Positions 3,235 through 43,599 of a stretch of 64,000 nucleotides of DNA are shown one piece after another. The notes beneath the pieces were generated by a model. It saw nothing but the letters and a program-made list of their open reading frames with translations, was not told the origin of the DNA and searched no databases. Made by a program: the position numbers and the translations under genes. Location: contig CP126191.1 of NCBI GenBank assembly GCA_030272155.1, forward strand, positions 3,122,501 to 3,186,500. Direction: 5' to 3'. Numbering within the stretch: the stretch's first letter is position 1; every line of letters begins with the position of its first letter. Source of the DNA: Tetradesmus obliquus. Lineage: Eukaryota > Chlorophyta > Chlorophyceae > Sphaeropleales > Scenedesmaceae.

Positions 3235-3823
3235 GCTAGCTCACCCTCGAGGGGCTGCGGCTGGGCCACCGCACTTGCTCATTGCGGAAGAGTGTTGTCT
3301 GCTAGTGCCCTGGTGTTGCATGCATAGACATATATATGTTTAAGCAATTCTGGTTGGTTGCATTGTCGCCTTTCCATCTCAACTGTTTTGCGTGTGCGCT
3401 GCACGGCACTGGTTTGAGACCATTGCAAATGTTTGGGCGCTGCGGGAATTGTGCAGAGCACTGGCTGATTGGCCGCAGCAGCGGTGAGCGCTGCTTAGCA
3501 ATATGCTGCGAGCTGTACAGCTCAAGCAGTGCAAGCCACCGCCGTACTTTGGTTGGATCCATGCAGCTGCAGCTGCCAGCTGGTAACAGCCTGACTATGT
3601 CAGCTTTGTATTGATCTACACTAGTATGCACAGCTGGCACCAGTCAAGCGGGGCAGGTCGCATGGATGTGCGTCACCGGGAAAAGAAAAGGAACAGAGAC
3701 TTTACACATCTTCAACTTCCACGCACATACGCATAGCATATGCTATTGCACAACTAGATCTACTCTAGAGTACAAAGCGCACAACGGGCAGCTCAGGGCC
3801 TGCCATGCAGCCAGCCATGCCTG
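3235..3823. other. Intergenic region between convergent genes
   Basis: 590 bases between the stop of the GBP-type gene and the stop of the giant minus-strand gene. It should hold both 3' untranslated regions. No coding pattern is seen on either strand. Confidence 0.6.
3702..3706 (-). terminator. Candidate polyadenylation signal of the giant gene
   Basis: TGTAA on the minus strand, about 118 bases after the stop codon at 3824. TGTAA is the usual poly(A) signal in chlorophyte algae. A five-base match is weak on its own. Confidence 0.4.
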
Positions 3824-6800
3824 CTACCTGCACAGCTGCTGCTGCTGCTGCATGTCGAGGTGCACCTGCGCCTGCTCTTCGACATCCTGGCGGCACATGG
3901 GGCAGGACGCACTGAAGTCACCGAGCCACCGTGTGATGCATTCCTGGTGGAACTGGTGGCTGCAAAACAGGGTGGCAACCTTGGCGTCGCCCTTGTACGG
4001 GTCGTGGCAGATGCTGCAGCATTCGTGGCGCAGCGAGACAGGCCTGCGCAGGCAAGGCAGGCTCGCCAGCACACCCTCCGACACCACCTTGCGCTGACTG
4101 GTCACCACCTTGCGCTGAACAGTCCCGCAGGAAGGGCCTGCGCCCCCACTGTCGCAACTTGAGGCCAGCAGCTCAAGAGTATGCGCAGCCTCTAGCTGCA
4201 CACTATCAGTGTTACTCTGCAACAACTGCCTCAGCACTGCTTCGCCACCTGCGGCGCGTACTCTGTCGCGGCCAGCAGGGCTGCCACTGCAAACAATGCC
4301 TAGTGCTCGCAGCGCCTCCAGCTGCGACCATGAATAGCTGCACCCCAGGATGCGCACTAGAGCCTCCACGCCGCCAGCATCAACAACAGCTGCCGTGCAT
4401 GCAGCGTCACCTTCAGCGATGATGCCCAATGCCCTGGCAGCGTGTTCAATTGTGAATGCGTTGCTGCTGCGCAGCAGCTGCACCAGAGCAGCCACGCCGC
4501 CAGCATCGCACACCGCAGCCTTGCCTGCAGCGTATTCTTCAGCCACATTGCCCAGGGCATAGGCTGCCCCCTGCACAGCTGCATCTGTGCTGCTGCCCAG
4601 CAGCTGCACCAACGCAGCCACACCGCCTGCATCACACACCGCTGCTCTGCCTGCGTCACAGACAGCCACATTGCCGAGAGCCCTGGCTGCCTCGCGTTGC
4701 ACTACTAGATCTGTGCTGTTGCTCAGCAGCTGCACCAGGGCTGGCACACCGCCAGCATTGCACACCGCTGCCGTGCAGGCAGTGCTTTCATGCCACCATC
4801 CAGCGATGATGCGCAGGGCGCTGGCTGCTGCTTGCTGCACTGAATGATCTGTGCAGCTGCTGGGCAGCAGCACAGCCTGCACAAGGGCTTGGCATGCAGC
4901 ATCAACAGCATCCAAATGGCGGAGGGCCAGAGCTGCATCGTACTGCACTGATTCATTTGTGCTGCTGCCCAGCAGCTGCACCAGTGCAGCCACGCCGCCA
5001 GCATCACACACTGCTGCCTTGCCTGCATCGCCAGCTTTAGCTATGCTGCTCAGGGCTCGCGCTGCATCTCGTTGCACTTCTGCGTCTGCGCTGTTGCTCA
5101 GCAGCTGCACAAGGGCGGGCACGCCACCAGCACGACACACCGCTGCGCTGCATGCAGCGCTCCTAGCCCAAGGATCTACTTCAACGATGGTGCGTAGGGC
5201 CATGGCTGCTGCTTGCTGCTTTGAATGATCTGTGCAGCTGCTGGGCAGCAGCACAGCCTGCACAAGGGCTTGGCATGCAGCATTAACAGCATCCAAACGG
5301 TGGAGGGCATCATGTGCCTCTTGCTGCACCTCTTCATCTGTGCTGCTACCTAGCACCTGAACTAGGGCTGCCACGCCGCCAGCATCCATCACTGCTGCCT
5401 GGCCTGCTGCATCGCCGCCAGCCACAACACCCAGCGCCCTGGCTGCGTTCTGCTGCACATCAGCATCTGCGCTGCCACCCAGCAGCTGCACCAGAGCAGC
5501 CACGCCGCCAGCATCGCACACCGCAGCCTTGCCTGCAGCGTATTCTTCAGCCACATTGCCCAGGGCATAGGCTGCCTTTTGCTGCACAGCTGCATCTGTG
5601 CTGCTGCCCAGCAGCTGCACCAACGCAGCCACACCGCCTGCATCACACACCGCTGCTCTGCCTGCGTCACAGAAAGCCACATTGCCGAGAGCCCTGGCTG
5701 CCTCGCGTTGCACTACTAGATCTGTGCTGTTGCTCAGCAGCTGCACCAGGGCTGGCACACCGCCAGCATTGCACACCGCTGCCGTGCAGGCAGTGCTTTC
5801 ATGCCACAATTCAGCGATGATGCCCAGGATGCTGGCTGCTGCTTGCTGCACTGAATGATCTGTGCAGCTGCTGGGCAGCAGCATAGCCTGCACAAGGGCT
5901 TGGCATGCAGCATCAACAGCATCCAAATGGCGGAGGGCCAGAGCTGCCGCGTACTGCACTGCTTTATCTGTGCTGCTGCCCAGCAGCTGCACCAGTGCAG
6001 CCACGCCGCCAGCATCACACACTGCTGCCTTGCCTGCATCGCCAGCTTTAGCTATGCTGCTCAGGGCTTCCACTGCATCTCGTTGCACTGCTGCGTCTGC
6101 ACTGTTGCTCAGCAGCTGCACAAGGGCGGGCGCGTCACCAGCACGACACACCGCTGCGCTGCATGCAGCGGCCCTAGCCCAAGGATCTACTTCAACGATG
6201 GTGCGTAGGGCCATGGCTGCTGCTTGCTGCTTTGAATGATCTGTGCAGCTGCTGGGCAGCAGCACAGCCTGCACAAGGGCTTGGCATGCAGCATTAACAG
6301 CATCCATACGGTGGAGGGCATCATGTGCCTCTTGCTGCACTGCTTCATCTGTGCTGCTACCTAGCACCTGAGCTAGGGCTGCCACGCCGCCAGCATCCAT
6401 CACTGCTGCCTGGCCTGCTGCATCGCCGCCAGCCACAACACCCAGCGCCCTGGCTGCGTTCTGCTGCACTTCAGCATCTGCGCTGCCACCCAGCAGCTGC
6501 ACCAGAGCAGCTACGCCGCCAGCATCGCACACCGCTGCCTTGCATGCGGCGTCACCATTAGCCACATTGCACAAAGCCCAGGCTGAGTTTCGCTGTACCG
6601 TTGTATCTGTGCTGCTGCTCAGCAGCTGCACCAGCGCCGCCACACCGCCAGCATCGCACACTGCTGCCTTGCATGCAGCATTACCGTTAGCCACATTGCA
6701 CAGAGCAGAGGTGGCAATTTGCTGTATAAATGCTTCCTTGCTGCTGACCAGAAGCTGCACCAGAGCTGCCACGCCGGCAGCACCGCACACCGCTGCCCTG

Positions 6801-8188
6801 CACACAGCGTCACCTGCAGCCACTATGGCCAGGGCCCAAGCTGCGTTTCGCCGTATACATCTATCTGTGCTGCCACCAAGCAGCTGCACTAAGGCAGCCA
6901 CGCCGCCAGCATCGCACACCGCTGCCCTGCATGCAGCGTCACCTGCAGCCACGTTGCCCAGGGCCCTGACTGCATTGCGCTGTATATACACATCTGTGCT
7001 GCTACCCAGCAAATGCACCAGCACAGGCACGCCGCCAGCATCGCACACCGCTGCCCTGCATGCAGCGTCACCTGCAGCCACGTTGCCCAGGGCCCTGACT
7101 GCATTGCGCTGTATATACACATCTGTGCTGCTACCCAGCAAATGCACCAGCACAGGCACTCCGCCAGCATCGCACACCGCGGCCTTGCCTGCAGTGTCAC
7201 AAGCCAGACCATTCAGGGCCCAGGCTGCAATGTGCTGCTGCAATGCATCTGTGCTGCTACTCAGCAGCTGTACTAGGGCAGGCACCCCGCCAGCATGGCG
7301 TACCACTGCCTCCACAGCAGCGGTATCTGCGGTGCTAGCGGGGTTACAAACCGGCGTAAATTTCAGGATCCAGAGCAGCAGAGTAGGTGAGCAGCAGAGT
7401 ATCCAGGCGACCAGCTGCGATGCTGCATGTGCGCTGCTGCCCACCAGGGCAGCCACGCTGCCCGCGCAGTGCACCGCTGCCTTGCATGCTGCTTCACCGC
7501 AAGCCGCAGTCTTGCCGAGGCTCCAAGCTGCCGCTCGCTGCACTGCTGCATAGGTGCTGCCCATCAACAGCCGCACCACTTTGTGGCATGCAGCAGATAT
7601 CTCACCCACAATGCGCAGGACGGGAGCTGCCGGCTGCTGCACCGCAGCATCTGTGCTGGTACCCAGCAGCTGCATATGAGCGTGGCACGCAGCTTGGTCA
7701 GCGGCGACAATGCTTAGGGCCCAGGCCGCTGCCTGCTGCACTGCTGCGTCTGCGCTGCTCTGTTCCAGCTGCACCAGGGCAGGCACGGCGCCAGCATCAA
7801 CCATAGCTGCCCTGCATGCAGCGTCACCTTCAGCGATGCCGCCCAGGGCCCTGATTGCTGCTTGCTGCACTGCTGCATCTATGCCAATGCCCAGCAGCCT
7901 CACCAAAGCGGCCACACCGCCAGCATCGCACACTGCTGCTTGGTCGGCTGCGTCACCGCAAGCCACGTTGCACAGGGCGCTGACTGCCGCCTCTTGCGCT
8001 GCTGTGTTATCGCTGTTCAGAAGTCCCTGCACCAGAGCAGCCATGCCGCCAGCGGACTGCACCACATGCATGGCACGCAACTTGTCCAGCGCAGCAGCTG
8101 CACTGGGCCTGTCAGCAGCACTGCTGCTGCAGCAGCTGCTCATCAGCTGCCAGTAGCCCTCAGGCAGCCGCTGCTGCCATGCGTCCCA

Positions 8189-8220
<32 letters not shown>

Positions 8221-9585
8221 ATGCTTGCAGCAGTGTCCCGTGCTCGTCCAGCAGCTGCAGGCTGTGCTGGACGTCGCTCAGCTGCTCTGCACTGCCGATG
8301 TCGTGCTCAGCCGGCACCCAGCACGCTGCCAGCTGCAGCATCAGCACGCCCAGGCCAAACACATCTGTTGCTGCACTGAACGGCGCTCCCTGCTGCAGCA
8401 CCTCAGGCGCTGTCAGCAGCGGGTGGCATAGGGTGCTGGTGCCGCTGACGGCATGCCGCCACGGACCCACCCAGCTCAGCTGCGCCAGCTGCTCCTGCTG
8501 CTGCTGCTGCTGCTGTTGCTGCTGTGCCTGTGGCTGCTCACTCGTCACCGGCTGCGGGTCCCGCAGCAGGTGCACTGTGCCTGCGTGCACGGCACAGTGC
8601 GCCACTGGCGGCTGCAGGCCATGCAGCGCTGCCAGTGCAGCAGCAACCTCAGTAAGCAGCTGCAAGGCACAGGGCCAGGGCATGCCTGCTCCTTGCCAGC
8701 CATCACCCAGCAAGCTGAGGCCCCTGCTGCAGTGCTGCTGCGTCTGCAGCCATGCGCCCAGCGTGCAGCGCGTCGGATTCTGCTGCTGCGGCAGCTGCAG
8801 CGGCGGTGGCGCTGCCTGCAGCAGCAGAGGCGGCTGCAAGCACAGCGCCTGGACTGGCATCAGGTAGCTGCTGCCAGGAGCCGATGCAATCCGCTGCCTC
8901 ATGGCTGACAGGAGAGCTGGCGGTGGCGGCTTGCTGGACATGGCTTCTGTTTTGCTCGCCCACAACAGCACAGGGTGCTGCAGCAGCATAACAGGCTGCC
9001 CTGCGTTAGGTGGCTGCTGCTGCTGCTCTGCCAAGCTGTCGCTGGGTGGGTATGCTGGCAAGCAGCACACCCAGACCGCATGCTCCGGCTGTTGTGACTC
9101 AGCCTCAAAAACCTGGCACCAGCTGCTGCCCAGGCATGTCTCAGCTTGCTGCTGCTGCACCAGCAGGCCTGGCAGTGCAGCTGCAAGGTCAGGCAGCTGC
9201 TGGCACACCACAAAGCCAGGAGGCCAGGCATGAACTGCTGCTACAATGCTGTCTAGCTGCTCGCACGTCTGCGTGCACAGCTGCTGCTCCATGTCCGCGC
9301 CTTGCTGCACCTGCAGCGCTGTGGCGTCCTGCTGTTGCTGCTGGAACCAGTGGTGGGTCAGGATGCCTTGCACGCTGCACGGCATGTGTGCTGGGCTGCT
9401 CCCAAGCAGCAGCTGCAGCAGCTCCTGGCATGCAGCGGAGCGGCCCTTTGGCAGCTGCATGACTGCCTGGCTGCTGCTGCTGCTGCTACTGCTGCTAGTG
9501 TCTGCTGGTGTCAGCTGCCCGCCCAGCAGCTGCAACAGCAGCTGCCCACAGGCGCGGAGGTCGTCAAGGCGCCCTTGCACTGCTG

Positions 9586-9618
<33 letters not shown>

Positions 9619-10427
9619 GTGCAAGGCCGAAGAGGGGACACGGCACCTTTGGCAGCGGGGGCCGCCCATCGCGCTCCTGCAGCCGCAAGCCAAGCAAGTT
9701 TGCCAACATCAACGTAGGCAGCAACCAGCACAACAACCGACTGGTGTTGTCAAACAACTGAACAAACTCCTCATGCCGCCGATTAGTGGGGACAGCAACC
9801 AGTGAAGCAGCTGACTACCGCTGCCATACCAACCCCTCACACAGTAACCTCGCCCACGCGCCTCACCTGCAGCAGTGTGTGCTGGATGAGCAGGCCGGCC
9901 AGCCCCTGGCTGTGGCAGTAATCCACCGCCAGCAGCACCTGCAGGCAACACAGCAGCGCAGCGTCAGCAGCAGCATCTTCATGTTGCAGCGGCAGCAGCA
10001 GCAGCAGCAGCGCACGCCAGGGCTCCTACCCATCCCTGACAGACCCTCACCTGCTGGAAAAGGCAGCGCGCCGCCGCCTCGCTCAGCTGCCTGCCCTGCT
10101 GCCGGCGCTGCTGCAGGTACTGCACCAGGCTGAGGGCCGCACAGCTCTCCAGCACCACCACAAGGTGGCCGGGCGTCAGGTGCAGCTCCCTCACACGCAG
10201 CACGCATGGGTGGTGCAGCAGCACGGACTTCTGCACCAGCCGCTGCAGCTGCGGTAGGTCCTGCAGCTGCTCACGGGGCAGCTTCAGCAGCAGCACATGC
10301 TCGCCGCTGCTGTTGCTGCTGGCCAGCTCAGTGCCAGGGGCGATGCTGCCCAGGCAGGCGATGGTCTGGTACAATTGCAGTATTTGCTGTTGGTGCTGCT
10401 GCTGCTGAGCTTCGGGGTGTGCCTGCC

Positions 10428-10462
<35 letters not shown>

Positions 10463-13400
10463 TGCTCGACATCCTGGCGGCACATGGGGCAGGCCGCACT
10501 GAATGCACCTAGCCACCTTGCAATGCACTGCTGGTGGAACTGGTGGCTGCAAGGCAGGCTGGACACCATGGCATCCTCCTTGTACTCTTCATGGCATATG
10601 CTGCAGCATTCCCGGCGCAGGGAGTCAGGCCTGCGCATGCAAGGTAAGCTCGCCAGCACAACCTGCAACACCACATTACGTTGGCCAGCTCCGCAAGACG
10701 AGCCTGCACTCGTATTGTCGCCATCTGAAGCCAGCTGCGCAAGAATACGTGCAGCCTCAATCTGAACACTATTTTTGCCACTCTTCAACAGCTGCCTCAG
10801 CACTGCGTCACCGCCTGCAGCGTATACTCTCTCGCGGTTAGCAGGAGTGCCACTGCAGACATTGCCTAGTGCTCGTAGCGCTTCTAGCCGTAACCATGTG
10901 CCGCTGTGCTCTAGCAAGCAGCCCAGGAGAGCCTCTACGCCGCCAGCGTCACAAATCAGCTCCTTGCAAGCAGCGGCACCTGCAGCAATGCTGCCAAGGG
11001 CCCAAGCTGCCTCTTGCTGCACTGCTGCATCTGTGCGACTATCCAAGATCTGCACCAGGGCAGCCACACCACCAGCATGGCACACTGCTGCCTTGCATGC
11101 TGTATCACCTTCAGCAATGCTGCCAAGGGCCTTGGCCGCCATTTGCTGCACTGCTGCGTCTGCGCTGCTGCCCAGCAGCTGCACCAGAGCAGCCACACCA
11201 CCTGCATTGCACACCGCTGCCTGGCCTACTGCGTCATCTTTAGCCACAGTGGCCAGGGACCAAGCTGCCTCTCGCTGCACTGCAGTATCTGTGGTACTAC
11301 ACAGCAGCTGCACCAGGGCAGCCACGCCGCCTGCATCGCACTTTGCTGCCTTGCACGCAGCCACAGTGCGCAGGGCCGAGCCAACCTCTTGTTGCACTTC
11401 TGCATCCCCGCAGCTACCCAGCAGCTGCACTAGGGCGGTCACACCGCCAGCATCACACACTGCTGCCTGGCCTGCTGTGTAGTCACATTGCACATTGACC
11501 AGAGCCCATACCGCCTCTCGCTGCAGTGCTGCATCTGTGCTATAGCCCAGCAGCTGCACCAGAGCCTTCACGCCACCAGCGTTGCACACTGCTGCCTTGC
11601 ATGCAGCGTCACCATCAGCTACATTGCGCAGGGCTGCAGCTGCCTCTTGCTGCAGTACTGTATCTGTGCTACTATTTAGCAGCTGAACCAAAGCGCGCAC
11701 ACCACCAGCATCACAAACAGCTGCCTGGCCTGTAGCATTACCTTCGGCAATGCTGCCCAAGGCCCTGGCTGCCTCACGCTGCACCGCTGTCTCCGTGCTC
11801 CTACACAGCAGCTGCACTAGGGCGGGCACGCCGCCAGCATTTAGCACCGCTGCCTGGCCTGCTGGGTCACCTTCAGCCACAATGACCAGGGCCCAGGCTG
11901 CCTCTTGCTGGACTATTGTATCTGTGCTGCTACTCAGCAGCTGCACTACGGCAGCGATGCTGCCAGCATCGCACTTTGCTGCCTTGCATGCAGCCACAGT
12001 GCGCAGGGCCCAGCCTGCTTCGCGCTGCACTTCTGCATCCCTGCAGCTGCCCAGCAGCTGCACTAGGGCGGTCACACCGCCAGCATCACACACTGCTGCC
12101 TGGCCTGCTGCGTAGTCACATTGCACATCAACCAAGGCACCGGCTGCCGTTCGTTGCACTGCAGCATCTGTACTGCTGTTCAACAACTCCACCAGAGCCA
12201 CCACCCCGCCAGCATCACACACCTCAGCTTGGCCTGCAACGCAACTATCCGCCACGCTGCCAAGGGCCCAGGCTGTTGCTCGCTGCACGGCTGGGTTTGT
12301 GCTGCTACCCATCAGCTGCACCAGGGCCGCCACGCCGCCAGCATCGCACACCGCTGCCCAGCCTGCTGCTGCGCCCTTAGCAACACTGGCCACGGCCCTG
12401 GCTGCGGCCTCCTGCACTGCTGCATCTTCGCTGCTACGGAGCAGCTGCACCAGCGCAGCCACGCCGCCATGATAGCACACTGCTGCAGCATCACCGCTGC
12501 CAGCAACATTGCGCAGGACGCTGACCACTTCCTGCTTCTCTGCTGGGTCTGTGCTGTTGTGAATTCGCTGCACCAGAGCAGCCAAGCCGCCAGCTGACTG
12601 CACCACACGCATGGCGCGCAGGCTCTCCAGTGCAGCAGCTGCACTGGGCCTGTCACCAGCACTGCTGCTGCAGCAGCTGCTCATCAGCTGCCAGTAGCCC
12701 TCAGGCAGCTGCTGCTGCCAGGCATCCCACTGCTGCTGCTGCTGCTCCAGTGCTGCCAGCAGCGTCCCGTGCTCGTCCAGCAGCTGCAAGCTGTGTTGCA
12801 AATTGCTGAGCTGCTCTGCACTGCCCATGTCGTGCTCAGCGGGCACCCAGCATGCTGCCAGCTGCAGCATCAGCACACCCAGCCCAAACACGTCTGCGGC
12901 TGCGCTGAACGGTGCTCCCTGCTGCAGCACCTCAGGCGCTGTCAGCAGCGGGTGGCACAGGGCCCGGGTGCCGCTGACAGAGTGCCGCCATGGGCCCACC
13001 CAGCTGAGCTGCGCAAGCTGCTGCTCCTGCTGCTGCAGTTCCTCCTGCTGCTGCTGCTGCTGCTGCTGCTTGTTGGCCAGGCTATGCGGCTCCCGCAGCA
13101 AGTGCACCACGCCTGCGTGCACCGCGCCATGCGCCACTGGCGGCTGCAGGCAGTGCAGCGCCGCCAGCGCAGCAGCAACGTCACACAACAGCTGCAATGC
13201 GCAAGGCCAGGGTGCGCCTGGCGCTGCTGCCTGCCAGCCATCACAAAACAGGCTGAGGCCACTGCTGCAGTGCTGCTGTGTCTGCAGCCATGCCGCCAGG
13301 GTACAGCGCATCGGCCCCTGCTGCGGCAACTGCAGCTTGGGCGGCGCTGCCTGCAGCAACAGAGGCGGCTGCAAGCACAGCGCCTGCACTGGCACCAGCC

Positions 13401-16400
13401 ACTTGCTGCCAGGGCTCGCTGCTGTGGTCAGCTGCCTCATGGCTGACAGGAGGGCCGGTGGTGGCGGCTTGCTGGACAGGGCCTCTGTCTTGCTCGCCCA
13501 CAACAGCACAGGGTGCTGCAGCGGTGTCACAGGCTGTCCTGCGTCCGGTTGCTGCTGCTGCTGCTGCTGCTCCTGCATGCTGTCCCTGGGTGGGTATGCT
13601 GGCAAGCTGCACACCCAAGCCGCCTGCTCCTGCTGTTTTGACTCAGCCTCAAAGACCTGGCACCAGCTGCTGCCTAGGCATGTGTCTGACTGCTGCTGCT
13701 GCTGCACCAGAAGGCCTGGCAGTGCAGCTGCAAGGTCGGACAGCTGCTGGCACACCACAAGCCCAGTCGGCCATTCATGCACCTCTGAAACAATGCTGTC
13801 CAGCTGCTCTTGTGTCTGCGTGCACAGCTGCTGCTCCACGGCCATGTCTTGCTGCACCAGCAGCCCTGAAGTGTCCTGCTGTTGCTGCTCAAACCAGCGG
13901 CTGCCCAGGATGCCTTGCACACTGCACGGCATGCGTGCTGGGTTGTTCCCGAGCAGCAGCTGCAGCAGCTCCTGGCATGCAGCGGAGCGGCCCTTCGGCA
14001 GCTGGATGACTGCCTGGCTGCTGCCGCTGCTGCCGCTGCTGCCGCCGCCGCTGCTGCCGCCGCCGCTGCTGCTGCTGCTGCTGATGTCCGCTGTAGCTAC
14101 CTGCCCGCCCAGCAGCTGCAGCAGCAGCTGCCCACAGGCGTGGATGTCGTCAAGACGCCCTTGCACTGCCGTGTTGCTGCTTCTGCTGTGCGCTAGGCCG
14201 AACACGGGACATGGCACCTTGAGCAGCGGGGGCCGCCCATTGCGCTCCTGCAGGCCGCAAGCCAAGCACAGACCGTTGGTCAGTTGGAGCGGCAACAAAC
14301 AGAACAGCTCACTGGTGCTGCCATGCGAGCACATCAAACAAACACCGCCCCAACACTCCTCACCCAAATACATCAAGAAACTCCTCTCACACGCCCCTCA
14401 CCTGCAGCAGTGTGTGCTGGATGGGCAGGCCGGCCAGCCCCTGGCTGTGGCAGTAGTCCACCGCCAGCAGCACCTGCACGCAACACAGCAGCGCACTGCA
14501 TCAGCAACAGCCTTGGTTTGTAGCGGCAGCAGCATCAGCAACAGCAGGGCGACATGGCATCAATACAGCTTGGGTGGGGCCTCACCTGCTGGAACAGGCC
14601 GCGCGCCGCCGCCTCATTCAGCTGCCTGCCCTGCTGCCGCCGCTGCTGCAGGTACTGCACCAGGCTGAGGGCCGCGCAGCTCTCCAGCACCACCACCAGG
14701 TGGCCAGGCGCCAGCTGCAGCTCCCTCACACGCAGCACGCCCGGGTGGCGCAGCAGCACGGACTGCTGCACCAGGTGCTGCAGGTCTGGAAGGTCCTGCA
14801 GCTGCTCACGGCGCAGCTTCAGCAGCAGCACATGCTCGCCGCCGCCTGCGCTGTTGCTGCAGCTTGCCAGCTCAGCGCCAGGGGCTATGCTGTTCAAGCA
14901 GGCGATGGTCTGGTAGGAACCTGCTGGCAGCAGAGGGGGTACAGGCATGCGCGTGTGACACGCCTTTGCATGGAGACATGTCACACTCATGTGCATGGAG
15001 GTGTGTGTCACACATTTGCGCGGAGGCGTGTCAGACACATGTGCATCATGCATGATGCAGGCGTGTGACACATGTGCGTGGAGGCAGCTCAGCAGTCAGC
15101 AACCTGCAGGGATGGTGATGCTTACCGTCCCAGCATGCAGTGTTGGCTGCCTCCTGGCTTTGGTCAAGGTCTCCTGCAGCGTCCTTGCTAGCCGCATTGT
15201 GTAATGCGCGCAGTCTCTCCAGTGCGGCGGATGCACTCGGCCTGTCACGAGCACTGCTGCTGCAGCAGCTGCTCATCAGCTGCCAGTAGCCCTCAGGCAG
15301 CTGCCGTTTCCAGGCATCCCAGCGCTGCTGCTGCTGCTGCTGCTGCTGCTCTAGTGCTTGCAGCAGCGTCCCGTTCTCATTTAGCAGCTGCAAGCTGTCT
15401 TGCACATCGCTCAGCTGCTCCGCACTGCCGATGTCGTGCTCAGCCGGCACCCAGCATGCTGCCAGCTGCAGCATCAGCACCCCCAGCCCAAACACGTCTG
15501 TTGCTGCGCTGAAGGGTGCTCCCTGCTGCAGCACCTCAGGCGCCGTCAGCAGCGGGTGACACAAGGTCCTAGTGCTACTAACAGCATGCCGCCAGGGGCC
15601 CACCCAGCTGAGCTGGGACAGCTGCTGTTGCTGTTCCTGTGGCTGTTCCTGTGGCCGTTCATTCTTCACCAGCTGCGGGTCTCGCAGGAGGTGCACTGTG
15701 CCTGAGTGCACGGCACAGTGCGCCACTGGCGGCTGCAGGACGTGCAGCGCCGCCAGTGCAGCGGCAACCTCACCCAGCAACTGCAAGGCGCAAGGCCAGG
15801 GTGCGCCGGGCGCTGCGCCCTGCCAGCCATCACCCAGCAGGCCGAGGCCCCTGCTGCAGTGCGGCTGCGCCTGCAGCCATGAGGCAAGTGTGCAGCATGC
15901 CAGCCCCTGCTGCGGCAGCTCCAGCTGCATTTGCGGCGGCGCTGCCTGCAGAAGCAGAGGAGGCTGCAAGCACAGCCCTTGCACCGGCACAAGCCACTTG
16001 CTGTCAGGGGCCGCTGCACTGAACTGCCGCATGGCAGACAGCAGGGCCGGCGGTGGCGGCTTGCTGGACAGGGCTTCTGCCTTGCTCGCCCACACCAGCA
16101 CAGGATGCTCCTGGGGCATGAGAGGCTGTCCTGTGAGTTGCTGCTGCTGCTGCTGCTGCTCCAGCATGTTGTCGCTGGGTGGGTATGTCGGCAAGCAGCA
16201 CACCCAAGTCACATGCTCCTGCTGTGGTGACTCAGCCTCGAACACCTGGCACCAACTGCTGCCTAGGCCTATGTTTGATTGCTGCTGCTGCACCAGCAGG
16301 CCTGGCACTGCAGCTGCAAGGTCTGAGAGCTGCTGGCACACTACAAGCGCAGGCGGCCAGGCATGCACTGCCGCTACAATGCTGCCTAGCTGCTCTTGCG

Positions 16401-16745
16401 TTTGCCTGCACAGCTGCTGCTCCATGTCCTGCTGTAAGTGCAGCGCTGCAGGGTCCTGCTGCTGCTGCTGGAACCAGCGGCTGCTCAGGATGGCTTGCAC
16501 GCTGCATGGCAGCTGTGCAGGGCTTCCGCCGAGCAGCAGCTGCAGCAGCTCCTGGCATGCAGCGGAGCGGCCCTTCGGCAGCTGCATGACTGCCTGGCTG
16601 CTGCTGCTGATGGCTGCTGTAGTCAGCTGCCCGCCCAGAAGCTGCAGCAGCAGCTGGCCACAGGCACGCATGTCGTCAAGGCGCCCTTGCAATGCTGTGC
16701 TGCTGCTGCTGCCGCTGCCGTCAACAAAGCGCCCTTGCACTGACG

Positions 16746-16778
<33 letters not shown>

Positions 16779-17877
16779 GCGCCAGGCTGAACAGTGGACA
16801 GGGCACCTTGGGCAGCGGGGGCTGCCCATTGCGCTCCTGCAGCCGCAAAGCCAGACACAGAACATCAACCACACGCGCAGCAACCAGCAAAACAACACTG
16901 CAAGATGTGTGGCACCAGCTGTCATCTAGCGTAGCAGGGTGAAGCATGCGTCATTAGACTGCATGACTCAGCGCGCCACTACAACTGGCGACACACAAAC
17001 CCGTCACACAAAGTCCTTACACCAACTCATCACAGGCCCGACCTCAACCAGGCTCCTCACCTGCAGCAGTGTGTGCTGGATGGGCAGGCCGGCCAGCCCC
17101 TGGCTGTGACAGTAGTCCACCGCCAGCAGCACCTGCACGCAAAACAGCAGCGCAGCGTCAGTAAAAAGTCCATGATGGCAGCAGTGCCAGCACCAGCAGG
17201 AGCAGCAGCAGGAGCAGCAGCAGGAGCAGCAGCAGGAGCAGCAGCAGGAGCAGCAGCACCTGTCATGGCAGCCGTACACCTGGACCGAGGCTCACCTGCT
17301 GGAAGAGGCAGCGTGCCGCCGCCTCACTGAGCTGCCTGCCCTGCTGCCGGCGCTGCTGCAGGTACTGCACCAGGCTGAGGGCCGCGCAGCTCTCCAGCAC
17401 CACCACCAGGTGGCCAGGCGCCAGGTGCAGCTCCCGCACACGCAGCACGCCCGGGTGGCGCAGCAGCACGGACTGCTGCACCAGGCGCTGCAGGTCGGGA
17501 AGGTCCTGCAGCTGCTCACGGGGCAGCTTCAGCAGCAGCACATGCTCGCCGCTGCTGTTGCTGCAGCTTGCCAGCTCAGCGTCAGGGGCGACGCTTCCCA
17601 GGCAGGCGATGGTCTGGTAGGGGCCTGCTGGCAGGCAGCAGCGGCGAGAGCATGTCACACACATGTGCATGGAAGAGCCGAATGCTCAGCAGGCTTTGCA
17701 GGGGTGCTGCTACCTACCGTCCAGGCTTGCAGCCGTGGCTGCCTCCTGGCTTTGTTCAAGGCCTCCAAGGATGGCTGGACTCCCCACTGCTGCCACTCCA
17801 GCCGTGGCGTTGTCGTTGAGTGGGACAGACGCGTGAGCTTCCTCAGGCTCCTGCTGCTGCTCGACCAACGAGTCCAT
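3824..17877 (-). CDS. Giant three-module pseudokinase / armadillo / RING-H2 protein (4,266 aa)
   Basis: Nine exons in transcript order: 17877-17718, 17624-17296, 17132-17061, 16836-15126, 14920-14586, 14473-14402, 14247-10051, 9938-9867, 9676-3824. All junctions are GT-AG, phases agree, and the sum is 12,801 bases. The start ATG (MDSLVEQQ) is the first in its frame. Three paralogous modules follow one another with no stop between them. Each begins with an SnRK2-like pseudokinase (YQTIACL ... VVVLES ... LAVDYCHSQG ... TLLQ ... FGLAHS) whose HRD is replaced by GLP or GLL and whose DFG Asp is Leu. A second pseudokinase follows, with HRD changed to HCA/HGA-type sequence and DFG to WVG, but with an intact TAPEVLQQG-DVFGLGVLMLQLA core. 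Modules 2 and 3 add armadillo repeats and a RING-H2 finger. Probable role: an E3 ubiquitin ligase scaffold using dead kinase domains for binding. Alternative: three separate genes with mis-joined ends, though nothing in the sequence ends them. Confidence 0.75.
4481..6500 (-). repeat. Two tandem copies of a 1,011-base block (eight armadillo repeats)
   Basis: The same order of eight distinctive armadillo units, including two atypical ones with LLPSSCTDHS, occurs at about 4481-5488 and again at 5489-6499. Matching landmarks lie 1,008 and 1,011 bases apart. Most differences are single bases, and one copy lacks a few bases near 4575. Confidence 0.85.
6901..7170 (-). repeat. Two near-identical 129-base armadillo units
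   Basis: The unit encoding VPVLVHLLGSSTDVYIQ is present twice in succession, 129 bases apart (43 codons). I see no base difference over most of its length, which suggests a very recent duplication or conversion. Confidence 0.85.
10477..14920 (-). other. Module 2 of the giant protein: pseudokinases, about 14 armadillo repeats, RING-H2
   Basis: Residues about 758-2140. The armadillo units have the consensus AGGVAALVQLLGSSTDAAVQ and about 42 residues each. The RING-H2 finger lies at about 10605-10477: CSIC ... C-S-H-QF-H-QQC ... CPMC, a Cys3-His2-Cys3 order with the conserved Trp after the sixth ligand. After the finger a Gln-rich tail reads on without stop into the first pseudokinase of module 3. 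Confidence 0.78.
14941..15080. repeat. Intronic imperfect repeats with CATGTGCATGGAGG
   Basis: Inside the intron 14921-15125, about four diverged copies of a 25-35 base unit containing GTGTGACAC and CATGTGCATGGAGG. A single copy of the same unit occurs in the matching intron of module 1 at about 17647-17672, so the two introns are homologous and one has expanded. Confidence 0.6.
15126..17624 (-). other. Module 1 of the giant protein: pseudokinase pair without armadillo or RING
   Basis: Residues about 54-757. The first pseudokinase ends at HWF-like 'SSRWF' with a Gln run. The second ends with an LPEGYWQLMSSCC ... DRPSASAALERLRAL block typical of kinase subdomain XI. Where modules 2 and 3 continue into armadillo repeats, this one passes into a linker, LDQSQEAANTACWDG. 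That linker nearly repeats the end of exon 1 (LEQSQEAATAASLDG) and splices straight into module 2. In module 1 DFG reads LFS rather than LFG. Confidence 0.7.
17198..17258. repeat. 12-base tandem repeat AGGAGCAGCAGC in an intron
   Basis: About five copies in the intron 17133-17295 of the giant gene. Confidence 0.85.
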
Positions 17878-18276
17878 TGTGCACGAGCTCAGTGTGCGCG
17901 CTTCTTCTGGCACAAATGGTCATTACCAGTACCCGTAATGTGCGGGCATCGCAGTGGATTAGGTTTGCATCTTCACTGACTTCAACATCAGGCAGTTTCC
18001 ATAGTGAAGCGCAGATCAAAAGCTGCTTCAACAACGTTTTGACGAATGGAAGGGGTTAGGACACGGCGATCGTGTTGTCACCGGTGGTTCGGCAGGTTGT
18101 CCCCCCAAGCTTCAGCGCGTCTTGATGGTAGGGTTGAGCACACGGATGGGTTGTCCATGACGTTGTTTGTGTCTTGGTGGCATTCTATCTTCAATTGCGA
18201 TTGCACGGGTATGTGATCAGCGGCCCGCATACGAATTCAGATCTGTCACCGTGTGAGCTCCCACCACGGCGCTTCA
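17878..18276. promoter_or_regulatory. Shared 5' region of two divergent genes
   Basis: 399 bases separate the start codon of the giant minus-strand gene from that of the plus-strand kinase. It must contain both promoters and 5' untranslated regions. No specific element was recognised. Confidence 0.5.
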
Positions 18277-20495
18277 ATGACATCTTCGACACCGTTTGCA
18301 ACAAACTATGAGTTCGACTTGGGTTCAGAGGAGCCGGCTGGAGAGCTGTGCGACGTGCCTCCGCCAGCACCAGCACCTCCTCCGCTGCAAGCACCACAGA
18401 GCAGCAGCAGCAGCAGCAGCAGCGACTTCGTCAAAATCGCCCTGCTGAGCAGTCAGGGCGCCTTCGCCCATGTGAGTCTGATATCCGTTCACACTGCTGT
18501 GAAAATAGAAAGCCTGCAGGCAGCTGCCGGTCAGCACCTCATGCTGTCCAACAGCTATCCCTGATGCACCCTCTGTATGCATCATGCCAGTGGCCATTGC
18601 TCATCCTACGCTGTGCTGCGTGCAGGTGTACCTTGTCCGCCACCAGGACGGCAGGAGGATGGCGTACAAGCAGATCACACGCAAGAAGGACCCCAGTGTG
18701 GAGCCAGCAAACTGCGCGGCTACCATTCAAGAGGCACAGGCGGAGGCGGCGCTGCACGTAAGATCACCTTGAAGTTGCAGGTTGAAGGTGCCTCACTGCG
18801 TGAATGCAGCCAGCAGCCCCCCTCCTCCAACGCTGCCGTGTAGCATGACACTGCACTGCACTGCACTGCACCGCACCGCAGGCATCGCTGAGCCACCCCA
18901 ACGTCCTGAAGTTTGAAGAGTTCTTTTGGGGCGCGGAGCTGGGCATGTTCCTTGAATACTGCAGCGGCGGTTCCCTCAGGAGTGGACTTGGCGAGTGCAG
19001 GAAGGGACCCAATTGCTTCAGCCGACTCAGCACAGAGATGCAGCTGCTGGTGCAGCAGCTGCGGCACTGGCCAGCCAGGCTTGAGCTGCTGCGGCAGGCT
19101 GCAGATGGCGTCAGCTACCTGCACAGCTTGGCAGACGGCGCTGTCCTGCACAACGACCTGCGCGCTGACAACATGCTGCTGCAGATCGGCGATGATGGCT
19201 CACACACGCTTAAGCTCGCTGACTTTGGCCTGGCCCTCAAAGTGCCAGCCAATGCAGAGCAAGAGGGCCGCGGCTGTGTGCGCGTGCCCAGCCGTCACGT
19301 CACCAACCCCCGCTGGGTTGCGCCGGAGGTCATCGCACACGCCAGCGATGACGGCGATGTTTCCTTGAGCCCGGCAACAGACGTGTACAGCCTGGCAGCA
19401 GTTATGTCTGAAGTCGTGACCGCACTGCCGCCGCTCTTCCCGTATCTGGATGACGCTTGCGTGGAGAAACACAACAGGCTCGACGTGAGCAGCAGGGCGC
19501 CGCATGTGCAGCCTGCCGAATGGTCTACCAGCAAAGTTTGTCCTCTTCAAGCGAAGAAACTCTTTACCCTGTGTTCACCACGCTCTTGATCAGGCACGTC
19601 ATACACGGATCGCTGGACTGCTTACATGCACCCCAACACCATCACTCTGTCAATATGTCGTGTATAATCAAGGCTCGTGCTGCTGCCCTGCCCTGCCCTG
19701 CCCCGCCCCGCCCCGCCCCCGCCCTGCCCTGCCCTGCCCTGCCCTGCCCTGCCCTGCCCTGCCCTGCCCTGCCCTGCCCTGCCCTGCCCTGCCCTGCCCT
19801 GCCCTGCCCTGCCCTGCCCTGCCCTGCCCTGCCCTGCCCTGCCCTGCCCTGCCCTGCCCTGCCCTGCCCTGCCCTGCCCTGCCCTGCCCTGCCCTGCCCT
19901 GCCCTGCCCTGCCCTGCCCTGCCCTGCCCTGCCCTGCCCTGCCCTGCCCTGCCCTGCCCTGCCCTGCCCTGCCCTGCCCTGCCCCGCCCCGCCCTGCCCC
20001 GCCCCGCCCTGCCCCGCCCCGCCCTGCCCCGCCCTGCCCCGCCCTGCCCCGCCCCGCCCTGCCCTGCCCTGCCCTGCCCTGCCCTGCCCTGCCCTGCCCT
20101 GCCCTGCCCTGCCCTGCCCTGCCCTGCCCTGCCCCGCCCTGCCCTGCCCTGCCCCGCCCTGCCCTGCCCCGCCCTGCCCTGCCCCGCCCTGCCCTGCCCT
20201 GCCCTGCCTGCAGGAGTTGTACTGCAAGCTCGAGCTGGAGGCAGCGGCCAGGCAGGGCACGCCCCACCTGCTGCGCTTCCCAGAGCCAAGCGAGAGGCTG
20301 CCCTGCCCGAAGGGCGGCGTGGAGTGTGCCGAGCCGCTGCGTGGAGTGTTTGAGGCGTGCTGCGACGTGCGCATCACCGCAGACCAGCAGGGGCAGCCGA
20401 AGGTTGCGCCGCCACCGGAGCAGCGGCGGCCGTCTGCAGACGAGCTGTCTGCTGCCCTCGCCAGCTGGCCAGACTGCAGCCTGGGCTGTGCCTGA
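18277..20495 (+). CDS. Protein kinase-like protein with HND catalytic motif (403 aa)
   Basis: Exons 18277-18471, 18626-18757, 18882-19484, 20214-20495 sum to 1,212 bases. The start is the first ATG in frame (MTSSTPF). A Pro/Ser-rich N-terminus precedes a kinase fold: LSSQGAFAHVYLV as glycine loop (lacking the usual second and third Gly), AYKQI with the ATP lysine, an EAALHA helix-C Glu, LEYCSGGSL hinge, HNDLRADNMLL catalytic loop (HRD changed to HND; the Asp and Asn are kept), LADFGLAL with intact DFG, then VAPEVI and DVYSLAAV. Activity therefore seems possible. The C-terminal 94 residues are divergent from usual subdomain XI. It is divergently paired with the giant pseudokinase gene but is not a close copy of it. 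Kinase family not assigned. Confidence 0.82.
19681..20211 (+). repeat. CCCTG pentanucleotide microsatellite in intron 3 of the kinase gene
   Basis: About 105 consecutive five-base units, mostly CCCTG. CCCCG variants cluster at the start, at 19984-20055 and at about 20140-20190. It makes up most of the 729-base intron and runs directly into the CTGCAG acceptor. The minus (template) strand is GGGCA-rich and could form G-quadruplexes. Confidence 0.97.
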
Positions 20496-32779: not shown

Positions 32780-35700
32780 TCACAGCCCCATCCTGCAGAT
32801 GGGGTTGCTCTTGACCATGCTCAAGCTGACCTTGTGCCCAAACAGGTCCCTGATGTTGTCAATGCCGTACAGGATCATGGTGGGCCGCTCCAAGCTGAGC
32901 CCCCAGGCAATGACATTCACATCTGGGGGCAGGCCCATGGGCTGCAGCATCTCAGGTCGGAACATGCCGCTGTTGCCCACCTCCATCCACTTGCCCAGCT
33001 CGCTGGAGTAGCTGCATGGTGGAAGGGATAAGACAGATGACGAGTACAGCAGCAGCAGTGGTTCTTCAGAGGCGAGGCAATGATGAGTGTGATGCAAGGC
33101 ACGGCGGAAGAAGAGCACTGCGGCTCAACTGCAACAGATGCTGGAACAGCAGACATAATCTTGAGTGGCGTGCCACTGCAGCTGCACGCCAAAGCGCATC
33201 ACGGCCCAACACTGCCGCTGCAGCACAGGGCCAGCATGCACACGCTTGGCTGAGCTGTTGATACAACTGATCGGCTCACTCAGCTGGGCCTTGCACAGCC
33301 TGGTGGCGAAGAAAAAAAAAGGAACATAAACACAAACAAACAAACACACAAACAAACAAACAAGCAAACAAGCACGGCAGTGCCCCTCACCCGAAGATCT
33401 CCATGCTGGGCTCCGTGTAGGGGTTGAAGGCCGGCTTGAAGCGCAGCTCCTTCATGCCCAGCCGGCTGAAGAACTCCTGCAGGGGGCAGGGCGGGACACA
33501 CATATACACACAGTGGGACACACAGACGCCAGGCACAGCTGGTTTGGCGAGAAGCACTTGGCCTGGTGTGCGGGAGCGCGGCCATGCCACTGCTTTCCCC
33601 ATATGCATGCATATTGACGCTAACAAGCTTTTGTAGCCGACACGCTGGCACAAGCAATCCCTGCAGCTGGCATGAAGCCAGCAAGGCGCAACCTTTGTCA
33701 CTGCAACTCGATCAACACAGTTCCTGATGTGTCCCACCTGCAGCGTGGCGATGAGGTGTCCCAGGGTGAGCCCCCTGTCACAGACCAGGCCCTCCACCTG
33801 GTGGAACTCAGCCAGGTGGGTGCGGTCCACCGCCTCGTTGCGGAACACGCGGTCAATGCTGAAGTACTTGGCGGGCCTGGTGCGGTGGGTGGTGTGCAGT
33901 GTAGTGGCATCGCAGCGCAGCAGCGAGGGTGCAGCACAGGTGAGGATTGGGCTGTGGCACTGACCCTGAGACAGATTGATGCTCATGCTTGCAGCGTCAT
34001 ATGCACAGGGCAGCAGTCTGTGGCTGAGGCCAGGGTTTGCAGGTTGCAGCAGGTTGCTGCGAGTGTGGTGATTGGGTGCTTCCACTGCTACAATCAATGC
34101 GCATCGAGACATTCACAGCAGCACATGTGTTCACCGACTCCCCTCCTGCAAATCGTGTTGTCGCGCTCACTTGAAGCCCTCCTGAGCCAGCTTGTACAGC
34201 ATGCGGCTGCTGACTGCGGTGGTGTGTGTGCGCAGCAGGTTCTTCTGCGCCTCGGACCGTTTCCAGCAGTAGCCGTAGCCAGCGGAGCCGTGGCCGCCGT
34301 GCTCGTGCACCGCCTGCAAGGAAATCATCATTATAGGTCCATGATGAGGCCAGGAAGCGTGGATGCGTTGCTGCAAACTGTGCAAAGGGCAGCTTCATAA
34401 CTTTCACGACAAGCCTTGCAGCACGCACGAGAAAAGGTTGCAGCCAGCGCGACATACAGGAGTGCCGAAGACATGAGAAAGCAGCAGCGCCGCACCTTGA
34501 CGCGCGCCAGGTAGTCCTCGGGGAAGGTGTCGCTGGCTGCTGGCTGAACGCAGGCGGCAATTTCAAACGAAAGAGCGCACTACAGCCTAACACAAAACCA
34601 AAGCCTTCACACACCTTGACGCGTGCCAGGTAGTCCTCGGGGAAGGTGTCGCTGGCTGCTGGGCTGGTGAGGAAGAAGGTGTCGTGCGCATCACGCGCGG
34701 GGTGCTGCTGCGGCTGGAACAGGGAGTCAAAGTTCCAGAAGCTTGACTCCACGTAGTTGTTGGTGGGCATCTCCTGGAAGCCCATGGCCACAAAGATCTT
34801 GCGGTACTGGCTGCGCACCTGCAGCGCAAAACATGCGTGGTTTGTGTGGAGTCAACATGCTTGCGGTAACACTGCATGCGTACCTGCCTTGCATGAGGTT
34901 TGCTGTGCATGCAGTGTTGCTTGCAGGAGCATGGTTTGTTTCGGTGAGCTTTGTTGCGGTGCTGGCTGCGCACCTGCAGGTGCGTAGCGCGTCTGCATGC
35001 GCGTGCGCATGTGTTTCATTGCTTGCCGGTGTCTTACACACGCAGCAGCATTCACGGTGAATGCAGGCAAACCCAAACACACTTCAGGTGACTTCAGACA
35101 TACTGTGTTGTAGTTAGGCTGGCGCCCCGCTGCGTGTGAGCACGTAGGAACAGAATTGCAGACAAGCCACAGGCACAGCCGCAGGCTCACCTTCATGAGC
35201 GGGTGCAGGTGCCCCCCGCTGGGCGGTAGGCCCATTGAGTTGAAGTTGAAAGGCTTGAACTCCTCACTGCGCCAGGAGCCACTGCGGACACGCAACAGCA
35301 GCAACAATAACGTGTTGTGAATGCATGGTACTTAGGCAAGCAGACTGTGTACGTCTAAGTGCCTGCATGTCCAGCAAGCCAGCAAGCACCAGCACGTCTG
35401 CTGGCAGCTTTTTCCAAGCGCTGGCCAAGCAGTCATTACAACAGCATCGGCACCTTCATTTGCAACTGCGTTTGACCGGCAGCCTTGCCACACACAGCTG
35501 CCGCTGCTGCTGCTGCTGCTTGTAGATGCGGTGTTGCTGCTGGTTCTGCCGCACCTGGCGATCATCTCGCTGGTCAGCTCTGTGGCCTGCTTCTTGCGCT
35601 GCGTGGCAAACTTGGCACCCTTGGACACGCGGTACGTCTTCCAGGTGCTGCAGGGAAGCAGCGGCGGCAGCAAGAAGGCACAGGTTGTGTCAGAATTGCT

Positions 35701-40800: not shown

Positions 40801-43599
40801 TGCGCTGGCTGGCTTGTCAGAGTCATACCTGGTCTATTTGTGGCATGTTTGCCATGTTCAGAGTTCTGGCTTTGCAAGCGTACTCCTGGTATGTTGCGCT
40901 CCAGCTTTGCAAACAAGTGTGGGGCACGTCTGGACATCGGCCAGTCGCCGTCATAGCACACTGTCGACCCAGCAGCGCACTCAAGCAAGATAAGCGTACT
41001 CGCCTGTTGCAGCTGCTGCTGGTATTGTCCAATCCTGCACACACACACTGTGCACGCTTGCTCAGTTCATCCCGCTGCTGCTGCTGCTGTCGCCGTTGCT
41101 GCCGCTGCTGCTGCCGCTGCTGCTGCTGCTGCAGCCAGCGCAACCTGCTGGGGCTGAACCAGAAGCTGTCTGCGCTGGTGGAGCTGGGCCAGGCTGACAG
41201 CCTGTTCAGGCTGCAGTGGGTGGACCCATGGATCCGTGGCGACCCCAACAGGACAAGCATGACCCTCAGCATGATGAACACGCGGTGAGGCGGCTGAGGG
41301 AGGTGGAGCAGGGAAATGCTTGTCTTGCTGCTGCTGTGGTTGCTGGAATAGGGTGTGTCTGTGCTTTATTAATTGTGCTCATTTGTTGTGCGGCCGGGTG
41401 TGCTGCATGACACCTCGCACCGCATGCACCAACGATTTGCGCCACCAGCGTCTGCACCCTGCTGCTCATGTGCGTGACACCCCTGCTCATGTGTGTGTGA
41501 CACCCCTGCTCATGTGTGTGTGACACCCCTGCTCATGTGTGTGTGACACCCCTGCTCATGTGTGTGTGACACCCTGCGCTTGCATGTGACACCCCTGCTC
41601 ATGTATGTGACACCCTGCTGCTCATGTGTGTGACGCCTGCTGCAGCACGTCTGCTGCCGGCATCCACGGCAAGGCCCTGGAGCCGGCTGCATCAGCTGCT
41701 CATGTGTGTGACGCCTGCTGCAGCACGTCTGTGACACCCTGCTCACGTCTGTAACATCCTGCTGTGTGTCTGCAACGCCCGCTGCAGCACGTCCGCTGCC
41801 GCCATCCACGGCAAAGCTTTGGAGCCGGATGCATCGCCAGCAGATGCTGCTGCTGATGCGCGTGGTGCTGCCGGTGGCGTGACGCTGGGCCGCCTGGTGG
41901 CTGGCACTGAGTGGAGGCGGCCCCTGGCAGCAAACTGGAGCGGCATCGCAGGTGCATGTGGTGTAGTGTGCTCTCATGGCAGTTTTGCCTGCTGTAATGT
42001 GCAGAAAGGTCCCACGCTGTTGTGCTGAAGCTGCTGTTTGGTACATAGTCGAGCGTACTGCGGCAGCAGCGCTTGCAAGCCTTGTCATGTGTCCGGCATT
42101 TACCAGCTGCAGTGCACGACAGCCGGTACGTGGGATCAAAACAGCAAGCTCATGCAGGTGCACAACAGCATCAGCATCTTCTCACACAAATGCAGCCCAC
42201 TCCTGTTGTTTCAACTATGCACATGTCTCAAATCTGGCTCGCAGGCCTGACCTGGCAGCGCAGCTGCTGCATGGACAGCCACGGCACGCCGCTGCTGAGT
42301 GATGCTTATGGCGCGCCGCTCACCTTCAGCGGACGGCCCAGTGACAGCATGATGCTGGGCGTCATCAGCGGCTCCTACAGGTGCGGGATTACTGCGCATT
42401 TCTTTTTCAGTCGCTCAAGTATGGACTGCATGTGCCTGTGCATGATGCTGGGCGGTCCGCAGCTCCTACATGTGCAGGATAACCGTGTTCGCAGATGGAC
42501 GTCTGTGCTTGTCCGAGGTTGGAATGCAAATGCATGTGTGAGATGGCAGCAGTTCCACTTTCAAGTTCAGCTGCGCGGCTGCATGATCATATCACTGCCT
42601 CTCTTGCAAACACCCCAAGCATTGCGCCGCTGCTTCTCCGCGCCACATGACTCATGTGTCACCACATCCCACTTACGCCGCAATCCCTACTGCAGCGCCA
42701 ATGACGGCAGCTCTATGGGCATCTCCCTAGAGCAAGCGCTGCCGCTGCACCCCGCCTGGCTCAACTTCAACCGCCTGCGGCTGCGGCTGGAGCAGCCAGT
42801 CACGCTGGGCCCGCTCACCCTGCAGCTGCGGGGCAAGGCAGGCAGCGTGTATGGGGACTTGCCACCATACGAGGCTTTCCCGCTGGGTGGCACGAATAGT
42901 GTGCGTGGCTATGCGGAGGGAGGTGTGGGCTCGGGGCGGCACTTTGTGGAGGGCACGGCAGAGCTGCGGTGAGGCTGGTTGGCAGAGGTAGATGCAGTTC
43001 TTTTGCGCCAAAGACAATACTGCACCTGCATCTAACACCTGCCGCTGCATCTTTTGCATCGCATGCTACAAACCAACAACAGGTTGCTGCTGGCCAAGCC
43101 AATGCATGATTGCTGCCGACACCTCTTTGTAAGGTGTCTTCCCTGCTGCTGCTCGTTTGATGTCTGTTTTAGGTGGCTGCTGGCCAAGCCGGTGCATGGC
43201 ACGCTGTTTGCCGACTATGGCAGCGACCTGGACTCGGGCGAAAGTGTGATTGGGGACCCCGCAGGCACGCGCGGCAAGCCAGGCAGGCAAGTGGTAAAGG
43301 CGTGCTGCGTAGTGCTGCACGGGCAGGGCAGGGCGGGGATTGCTGGTGGGGAGAGCGTGATGGGGGACCATGCGGGCACGCCAAGTCAGGCAGGCAAATA
43401 GCGCCTTATTTTGGATGCGTAGTGCTACATAGGTCAGGGCGGGGATTAGTGGCAGCACTGGTGGCATGGTACTGCGCATCTTGTGCGGTTGTGCTGCATG
43501 CGCGGCATGCTGCGGCGTGTTGCAGGTGTAGGAGCCTCTCAATGTTTGGCTGACTCGACCACTATCCGACAACACCGCTGCTGTGCTGCTTGCGGTCTG

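Follow-up and report, generated by a model that had tools for sequence, protein, structure and literature searches.

A probable single giant gene of Tetradesmus obliquus, with three pseudokinase modules, armadillo arrays and two RING-H2 fingers, as a candidate product of in-frame fusion

Between positions 3824 and 17877 of a 64,000-nucleotide stretch of the green alga Tetradesmus obliquus (Chlorophyceae, Sphaeropleales; contig CP126191.1, positions 3,122,501 to 3,186,500; the whole stretch is called the window here), three paralogous modules follow one another on the minus strand, raising the question of whether they belong to one gene or to several. An initial annotation of this locus had described nine exons with canonical junctions and 4,267 codons including the stop, with no stop codon separating the modules, and both statements were borne out: the exons, rejoined from the minus strand, sum to 12,801 nt, exactly 4,266 codons and a stop, and the sole in-frame stop is the terminal one. 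GT-AG boundaries are present in all eight introns, as is G at position +5 of all eight donors. We consider it probable that the locus is one nuclear T. obliquus gene, in which tandem-duplicated modules were joined by two in-frame fusions, and that its product would be a very large scaffold-type ubiquitin ligase (E3) of the RING-H2 class.

The longest stop-free run at the locus is 1,996 codons, whereas those in 200 simulations of the locus with a first-order Markov model averaged 377 codons and never exceeded 648, so that its long frames are real; a frame by itself is no proof of protein. A prokaryotic or viral origin was rejected on the basis of the spliced exons and a T. obliquus protein match described below. 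The first module consists of two degenerate kinase domains, PK1 and PK2, to which the second and third modules add an armadillo (ARM) array and a complete RING-H2 finger. The predicted features are as follows (HMM, hidden Markov model).

3824 to 17877, minus strand: whole gene, nine exons joined with one terminal stop, 4,266 amino acids
17877-17718, 17624-17296, 17132-17061, 16836-15126 and 14920-14586, minus strand: exons 1 to 5
14473-14402, 14247-10051, 9938-9867 and 9676-3824, minus strand: exons 6 to 9
15193 to 17718, minus strand: module 1, PK1 (SnRK2-like pseudokinase, residues ~54-310) and PK2 (apparently TKL-like pseudokinase, residues ~376-735), with neither ARM nor RING
15127 to 15192, minus strand: junction 1-2, end of module 1 PK2 in frame to a putative ancestral first-exon tail (GDLDQSQEAANTACWDG), then an intron
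12613 to 15129, minus strand: module 2, PK1 and PK2
10714 to 12612, minus strand: module 2, armadillo array of 15 units (Pfam Arm 5.5e-98; unit HMM)
10480 to 10605, minus strand: module 2, internal RING-H2 (C3H2C3, residues 2108-2149; zf-RING_2 2.7e-10; pattern)
10372 to 10479, minus strand: junction 2-3, RING tail and poly-Q leading directly into PK1 of module 3 at codons TACCAG (10371)
8072 to 10371, minus strand: module 3, PK1 and PK2
4145 to 8071, minus strand: module 3, armadillo array of 31 units including partial ones
3893 to 4018, minus strand: terminal RING-H2 (residues 4203-4244; zf-RING_2 6.5e-9; pattern)
3702 to 3706, minus strand: poly(A) signal TGTAA, 118 nt beyond the terminal stop, the only one of three TGTAA sites on this strand in 3400-18000 outside intron or coding sequence

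The two junctions are informative about how the modules came together. The intron at junction 1-2 is homologous to intron 1, and the junction tract is identical to the end of the gene's own exon 1 and intron 1 at 83 of 109 nt (blastn), with about 9 codons between the conserved end of module 1 PK2 and the exon-1 remnant; the peptide here runs from a LDQSQEAANTACWDG stretch into SYQTIAC. Because this exon 1/intron 1 homologue was kept, module 2 probably started out as an independent gene that had a first exon of its own, and this exon later became joined in frame to module 1. Junction 2-3 lacks exon 1, intron 1 and a stop altogether: homology to exon 2 sets in at TACCAG, which lies 5 nt inside the former acceptor of intron 1 and follows the CAG-rich RING tail, so that a poly-Q tail passes into YQTIAC, and ahead of module 3 alignment with the gene's own exons turned up neither an exon 1 nor an intron 1 homologue. 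In the history that we propose, a pseudokinase-pseudokinase-armadillo-RING module would have been duplicated in tandem, followed by two in-frame fusions, one linking module 1 with the end of the former first exon of module 2 and the other joining the RING tail of module 2 straight to the second exon of module 3. The suggestion that this is an array caught in the act of fusing understates the extent of fusion, since no stop or poly(A) signal lies between the modules, nor does an intact first exon or a gap of promoter size, and both fusions look complete at the DNA level.

The presence of six degenerate kinase domains was confirmed from their motif strings, placed through a PDB alignment for PK1 and by eye for PK2: the HRD and DFG aspartates are gone from both domains in all three modules. 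PK1 is most like the SnRK2/SnRK1 kinases, matching SRK2I at 2.7e-11 in a PDB sequence search and at 3.2e-11 when a profile of the three modules and two relatives was used, and module 1 PK1, the sole complete PK1 given to Pfam, matches Pkinase at 3.8e-8. The PK2 domains of modules 1, 2 and 3 match Pkinase at 5.9e-8, 3.7e-11 and 4.3e-7, respectively, the last falling just under the Pfam cut-off; among PDB sequences, the best hit to PK2 alone was at E = 0.059, and by our own reading of its sequence PK2 appears TKL-like. Homology to kinase domains in Pfam and PDB sequences, together with the missing aspartates, identifies these as pseudokinases by sequence, not by fold. Among seven relatives, queried with patterns written from the three modules, the HRD region was located in four for PK1 and in five for PK2, and none has the HRD aspartate; the degeneracy is thus probably older than the fusion.

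Each of the two complete RING-H2 fingers claimed for modules 2 and 3 was also recovered, with all eight C3H2C3 ligands at full spacing, zf-RING_2 matches above the cut-off, and the motifs CSIC, RWL and CPMCR. RINGs that bind a ubiquitin-conjugating enzyme (E2) are expected to have I, W, P and a following Arg, and both of these do: I comes after C1, W after C6 and Arg after C8, with P lying between C7 and C8. The solved structures nearest to the module 2 RING are AT5G66160, RLIM and RNF13 (PDB), and the two RINGs lie about 2,050 residues apart in the 4,266-residue chain. As a mechanism, the armadillo arrays and degenerate kinase pairs would hold partners or substrates while the RINGs recruit ubiquitin-charged E2, and the multivalent ubiquitin scaffold suggested by the initial annotation is a reasonable candidate reading. 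A bolder proposal, which we hold only tentatively and at slightly less than even probability, is that the 4,266-residue chain, with two active RING-H2 fingers, six pseudokinases and about 46 armadillo units, would act as one multivalent ubiquitin ligase, belonging to a Scenedesmaceae E3 family in which regulation or docking would fall to the pseudokinase pairs.

The number of armadillo units, put at some 44 by the initial annotation, depends on the tool. With an HMM of the unit, 46 were counted at an independent E-value (i-E) < 0.01, of which 15 belong to module 2 and 31 to module 3, with partial ones among them; this count is partly circular in that the model was built from 23 units of these same arrays. 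Pfam Arm recognized 14 stretches in module 2 and 22 in module 3. Within the array of module 3 lie two tandem duplications, one of 1,011 nt (copies at 6541-5531 and 5530-4523; 978 of 1008 positions identical by direct alignment) and one of 129 nt (7186-7058 and 7057-6929, 126/129 identical), and because these copies are so similar the array appears to have expanded recently. In an AlphaFold model of the ARM tail and RING, with a pLDDT (predicted local distance difference test) of 66, the helices of the ARM tail are confident. At window positions 7313-7393 the module 3 array is broken by SPTLLLWILKFTPVCNPAS, a tract that is not a repeat and contains TGTAAC (7348); it could be a decayed armadillo unit or an unannotated intron.

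Several observations weigh against one fused gene with a full-length, two-RING product, and one of them is the deposited annotation of this gene. A homologue search with residues 20-1440 against approximately 5.8 billion proteins, in which 1,644 candidates were scored, returned a single protein at E up to 0.001, T. obliquus OEZ86_011067, of 3,211 amino acids and 99% identical, a match that assigns the window to this species. The agreement with the gene is exact in six blocks; the protein shares the gene's start ATG and its stop, spans all three modules, and splices junction 1-2 as the nine-exon model does. The complete 4,266-residue reading differs from it by five extra introns in the deposited model, which omit residues 198-484, 1049-1146, 1310-1443, 2035-2293 and 2327-2603, so that the internal RING and junction 2-3 are lost, one RING is left, and the ARM array of module 2 is spliced directly to the PK1 of module 3. 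The deposited model may rest on other data, and because it omits the internal RING, the presence of two RINGs per chain is not certain. To these points are added the AlphaFold results, in which a kinase fold was not shown for the PK region (pLDDT 31, with 559 of 570 residues below 50, from a 3-row alignment) and a RING fold was not shown in the ARM-RING model (2 rows, with at least 22 of 42 RING residues below 50). Replacement/silent ratios of changes unique to each module are 0.62, 0.75 and 0.43 by a crude count that inflates replacements, and suggest that the constraint on each module is weak to moderate. Furthermore, the TGTAAC at 7348 could cause the early end of some transcripts, and the triple fusion is known from one deposited genome only.

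A fused gene whose mature protein is the deposited one, of 3,211 residues with a single terminal RING, the internal RING and parts of the kinase domains having been spliced out, is the likeliest of the alternatives, and we judge it unlikely. The five extra gaps are in frame and have GT donors and AG acceptors, and a related T. obliquus protein, OEZ85_007902 (P0004), jumps after the same QLSW motif as does module 2 of the deposited model. However, the skipped stretches evolve like coding sequence, because the ratio of replacement to silent substitution rates (dN/dS) among the modules lies between 0.10 and 0.59 in them. With stretch boundaries set by eye on module 1 coordinates and possibly off by a few residues, values were 0.30-0.39 for residues 198-484, 0.36-0.41 for the equivalent of 1049-1146, 0.10-0.25 for the equivalent of 1310-1443, and 0.42 for the RING part of 2035-2293 (one pair); after removal of columns in which both codons specify Q or S, the first three became 0.41-0.54, 0.44-0.59 and 0.13-0.30. 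Only one of the five extra donors has G at +5, as against 8/8 in the nine-exon model. The deposited choices are also inconsistent: the 198-484 stretch is dropped in modules 1 and 3 while about half of it is retained in module 2, the C-lobe of PK2 is dropped in module 2 only, and the RING is dropped in module 2 and retained in module 3. The P0004 model retains the equivalent of 198-484 and the RING and drops the PK2 C-lobe, and the kinase-pair protein P0009 retains both kinase stretches. OEZ86_009144 (P0010) lacks approximately 338 residues that are present in P0009 and is 93-96% identical to it in the remainder, a difference that suggests a habit of the annotation pipeline. On the combined evidence of dN/dS, donor quality and these inconsistencies, the nine-exon model is favoured over the deposited one, and on the first two of these grounds the omitted stretches were rejected as true introns, though alternative splicing may occur. 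It was also observed that OEZ86 models remove conserved Q/S-rich coding stretches at two loci, those of P0010 and of the giant gene, and other genes in that annotation may have lost coding sequence in the same way.

Two or three separate genes might instead have been merged, a kinase-pair gene for module 1 and pseudokinase-ARM-RING genes for modules 2 and 3, and we regard this as quite unlikely. Stand-alone proteins of both kinds exist, namely a PK1-PK2 protein (P0009, 738 amino acids) and the single-module P0004, and an unspliced reading beyond exon 4 meets a stop at 15046. In opposition to this, the gaps at the junctions are short, about 9 codons at the first, as given above, and 36 codons between the module 2 RING and the exon-2 homology of module 3; neither junction has an in-frame stop or space left for a 3' untranslated region and a promoter, and the first exon and intron are missing before module 3. 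Transcripts ending with poly(A) at each RING, which the initial annotation had named as the outcome that would argue for separate genes, were checked as signals. UGUAA serves as the poly(A) signal in Scenedesmus and is reported from 66.4% of S. obliquus mRNAs (PMC1868727). On the coding strand between 3400 and 18000, TGTAA was found at 17021 (intron 3), 7348 (coding sequence) and 3706, and at neither junction, so that poly(A) signals at the junctions were rejected; the two sites within the gene compare with about 5.5 predicted from base composition. The anatomy of the junctions, the lack of TGTAA there and a deposited model spanning all three modules agree with the original view of one gene.

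An assembly artefact that joined or multiplied separate loci is very improbable: the array is repetitive, as the 1,011-nt duplication illustrates, and the locus has been seen in one genome only, but both junctions are in frame, the modules (5-27% in nucleotides per 60-codon block) and aligned introns (26-48%) are too divergent for an artefact of duplicated reads, and OEZ86_011067 lies on an 11.1-Mb contig, though probably of the same assembly. It also follows from this divergence that the module duplications are not recent.

Three homologue searches, each limited in protein length, scored the 7,971, 1,644 and 7,991 candidates that shared most words, and no other triple-module protein was found among them, which, because of these limits, is weak evidence of absence. 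P0005 and P0006, which match through ARM repeats, were left out of the family comparison, as were P0014, P0015 and P0017. The kinase pair belongs to a family with single-module and kinase-pair-only members within T. obliquus. P0004 (1,968 amino acids) has the PK1-PK2-ARM-RING module, with 56-77% identity across the five segments that match best, and a similar exon-1 tail motif ahead of PK1; it differs in having a single module, preceded by a TKL kinase with catalytic motifs, and a PK2 C-lobe spliced out in its model. Residues 1-260 of P0004, ahead of the TKL kinase, are helical by eye and have no Pfam match at E up to 0.1; presumably they could resemble the helical bundles of MLKL-type proteins. 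P0009 and P0010 (391 amino acids) share the PK1-PK2 unit and the same lost catalytic motifs and match module 1, and are single units without ARM or RING. In P0004 and P0009 the components of the giant gene thus occur as genes of their own, which favours an origin by fusion. PK1 is also contained in P0012 (Scenedesmus sp. NREL 46B-D3), while P0013 and P0016 have a PK2-like part by Pfam. P0007 and P0011, both sourced from JGI, carry a degenerate TKL-like PK2 after a kinase C-lobe, and no ARM or RING-H2 was found in them; P0007 differs in a weak U-box match between its kinase domains (16 bits, below the Pfam threshold of 21.4). From this one weak match, the degenerate kinase couple may have been joined with ubiquitin-ligase domains more than once, and such repeated pairing may be the best clue to function.

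It had been claimed that no comparable E3 has been described. The exact kinase/ARM/RING combination was indeed not found described in the open-licence PMC papers searched (CC0, CC BY, CC BY-SA), where the locus prefixes OEZ85 and OEZ86 were not found either, and the main text of a Sphaeropleales paper (PMC12571836) does not contain the terms armadillo, ubiquitin or protein kinase. However, two known proteins combine kinase, repeats and RING. MAP3K1/MEKK1 carries SWIM, RING, ARM, TOG and kinase domains in one chain, its RING having E3 activity (PMC8750206); it differs from the giant gene in its domain order, its functional kinase domain placed last, its SWIM and TOG domains and its one RING, whereas here the catalytic residues are lost. 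KEG of Arabidopsis is likewise a RING E3 with a kinase domain and repeats able to bind substrates, in this case ankyrin and HERC2-like (PMC11020294), but its RING comes first and it has one kinase domain, whereas the RINGs of the giant gene follow the ARM arrays. Among the Pfam matches listed for the giant gene (25 of 31) there is no SWIM, no ankyrin and, setting it apart from the plant U-box/ARM proteins, no PF04564, RING-H2 being present instead. In KEG and MAP3K1, substrates are bound by repeats or by the SWIM domain, and ubiquitin is transferred by the RING (PMC11020294; PMC8750206). The giant protein belongs to neither family, nor to the plant U-box/ARM proteins, and would at best share this way of working, which is the most likely one for it. 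By domain content it also resembles the plant tandem kinases, which have at least two kinase domains in tandem, at least one of them degenerate. The wheat protein Lr9/WTK6-vWA similarly joins a pair of kinase domains, of which one may be a pseudokinase, to a further domain; that domain is a vWA rather than ARM or RING, the protein acts in wheat disease resistance, and in the giant gene both kinase domains are degenerate (PMC10260399).

The giant gene ties a degenerate kinase pair to ubiquitin ligase domains in green algae. Because both fusions left scars that are preserved, one junction retaining a remnant of a first exon and the other lacking an exon and an intron, it is well suited to the question of whether fusion of arrays gives rise to giant multi-RING proteins, and of whether two RINGs in one chain cooperate. 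If the proposed history is true, the locus shows a stepwise passage from a tandem gene array to one giant protein.

Elsewhere in the window, the open reading frames at 34000-34851, 42049-42972, 54967-56307 and 56887-57753 have matches to tRNA-synt_2d (class II, Phe type), Omp85 and TPR. A protein kinase gene at 18283-19589, divergent and on the plus strand (Pkinase 4.9e-21 in the open reading frame 18849-19589), appears from the sequence to start about 400 bp from the ATG of the giant gene, and the two may share a bidirectional promoter.

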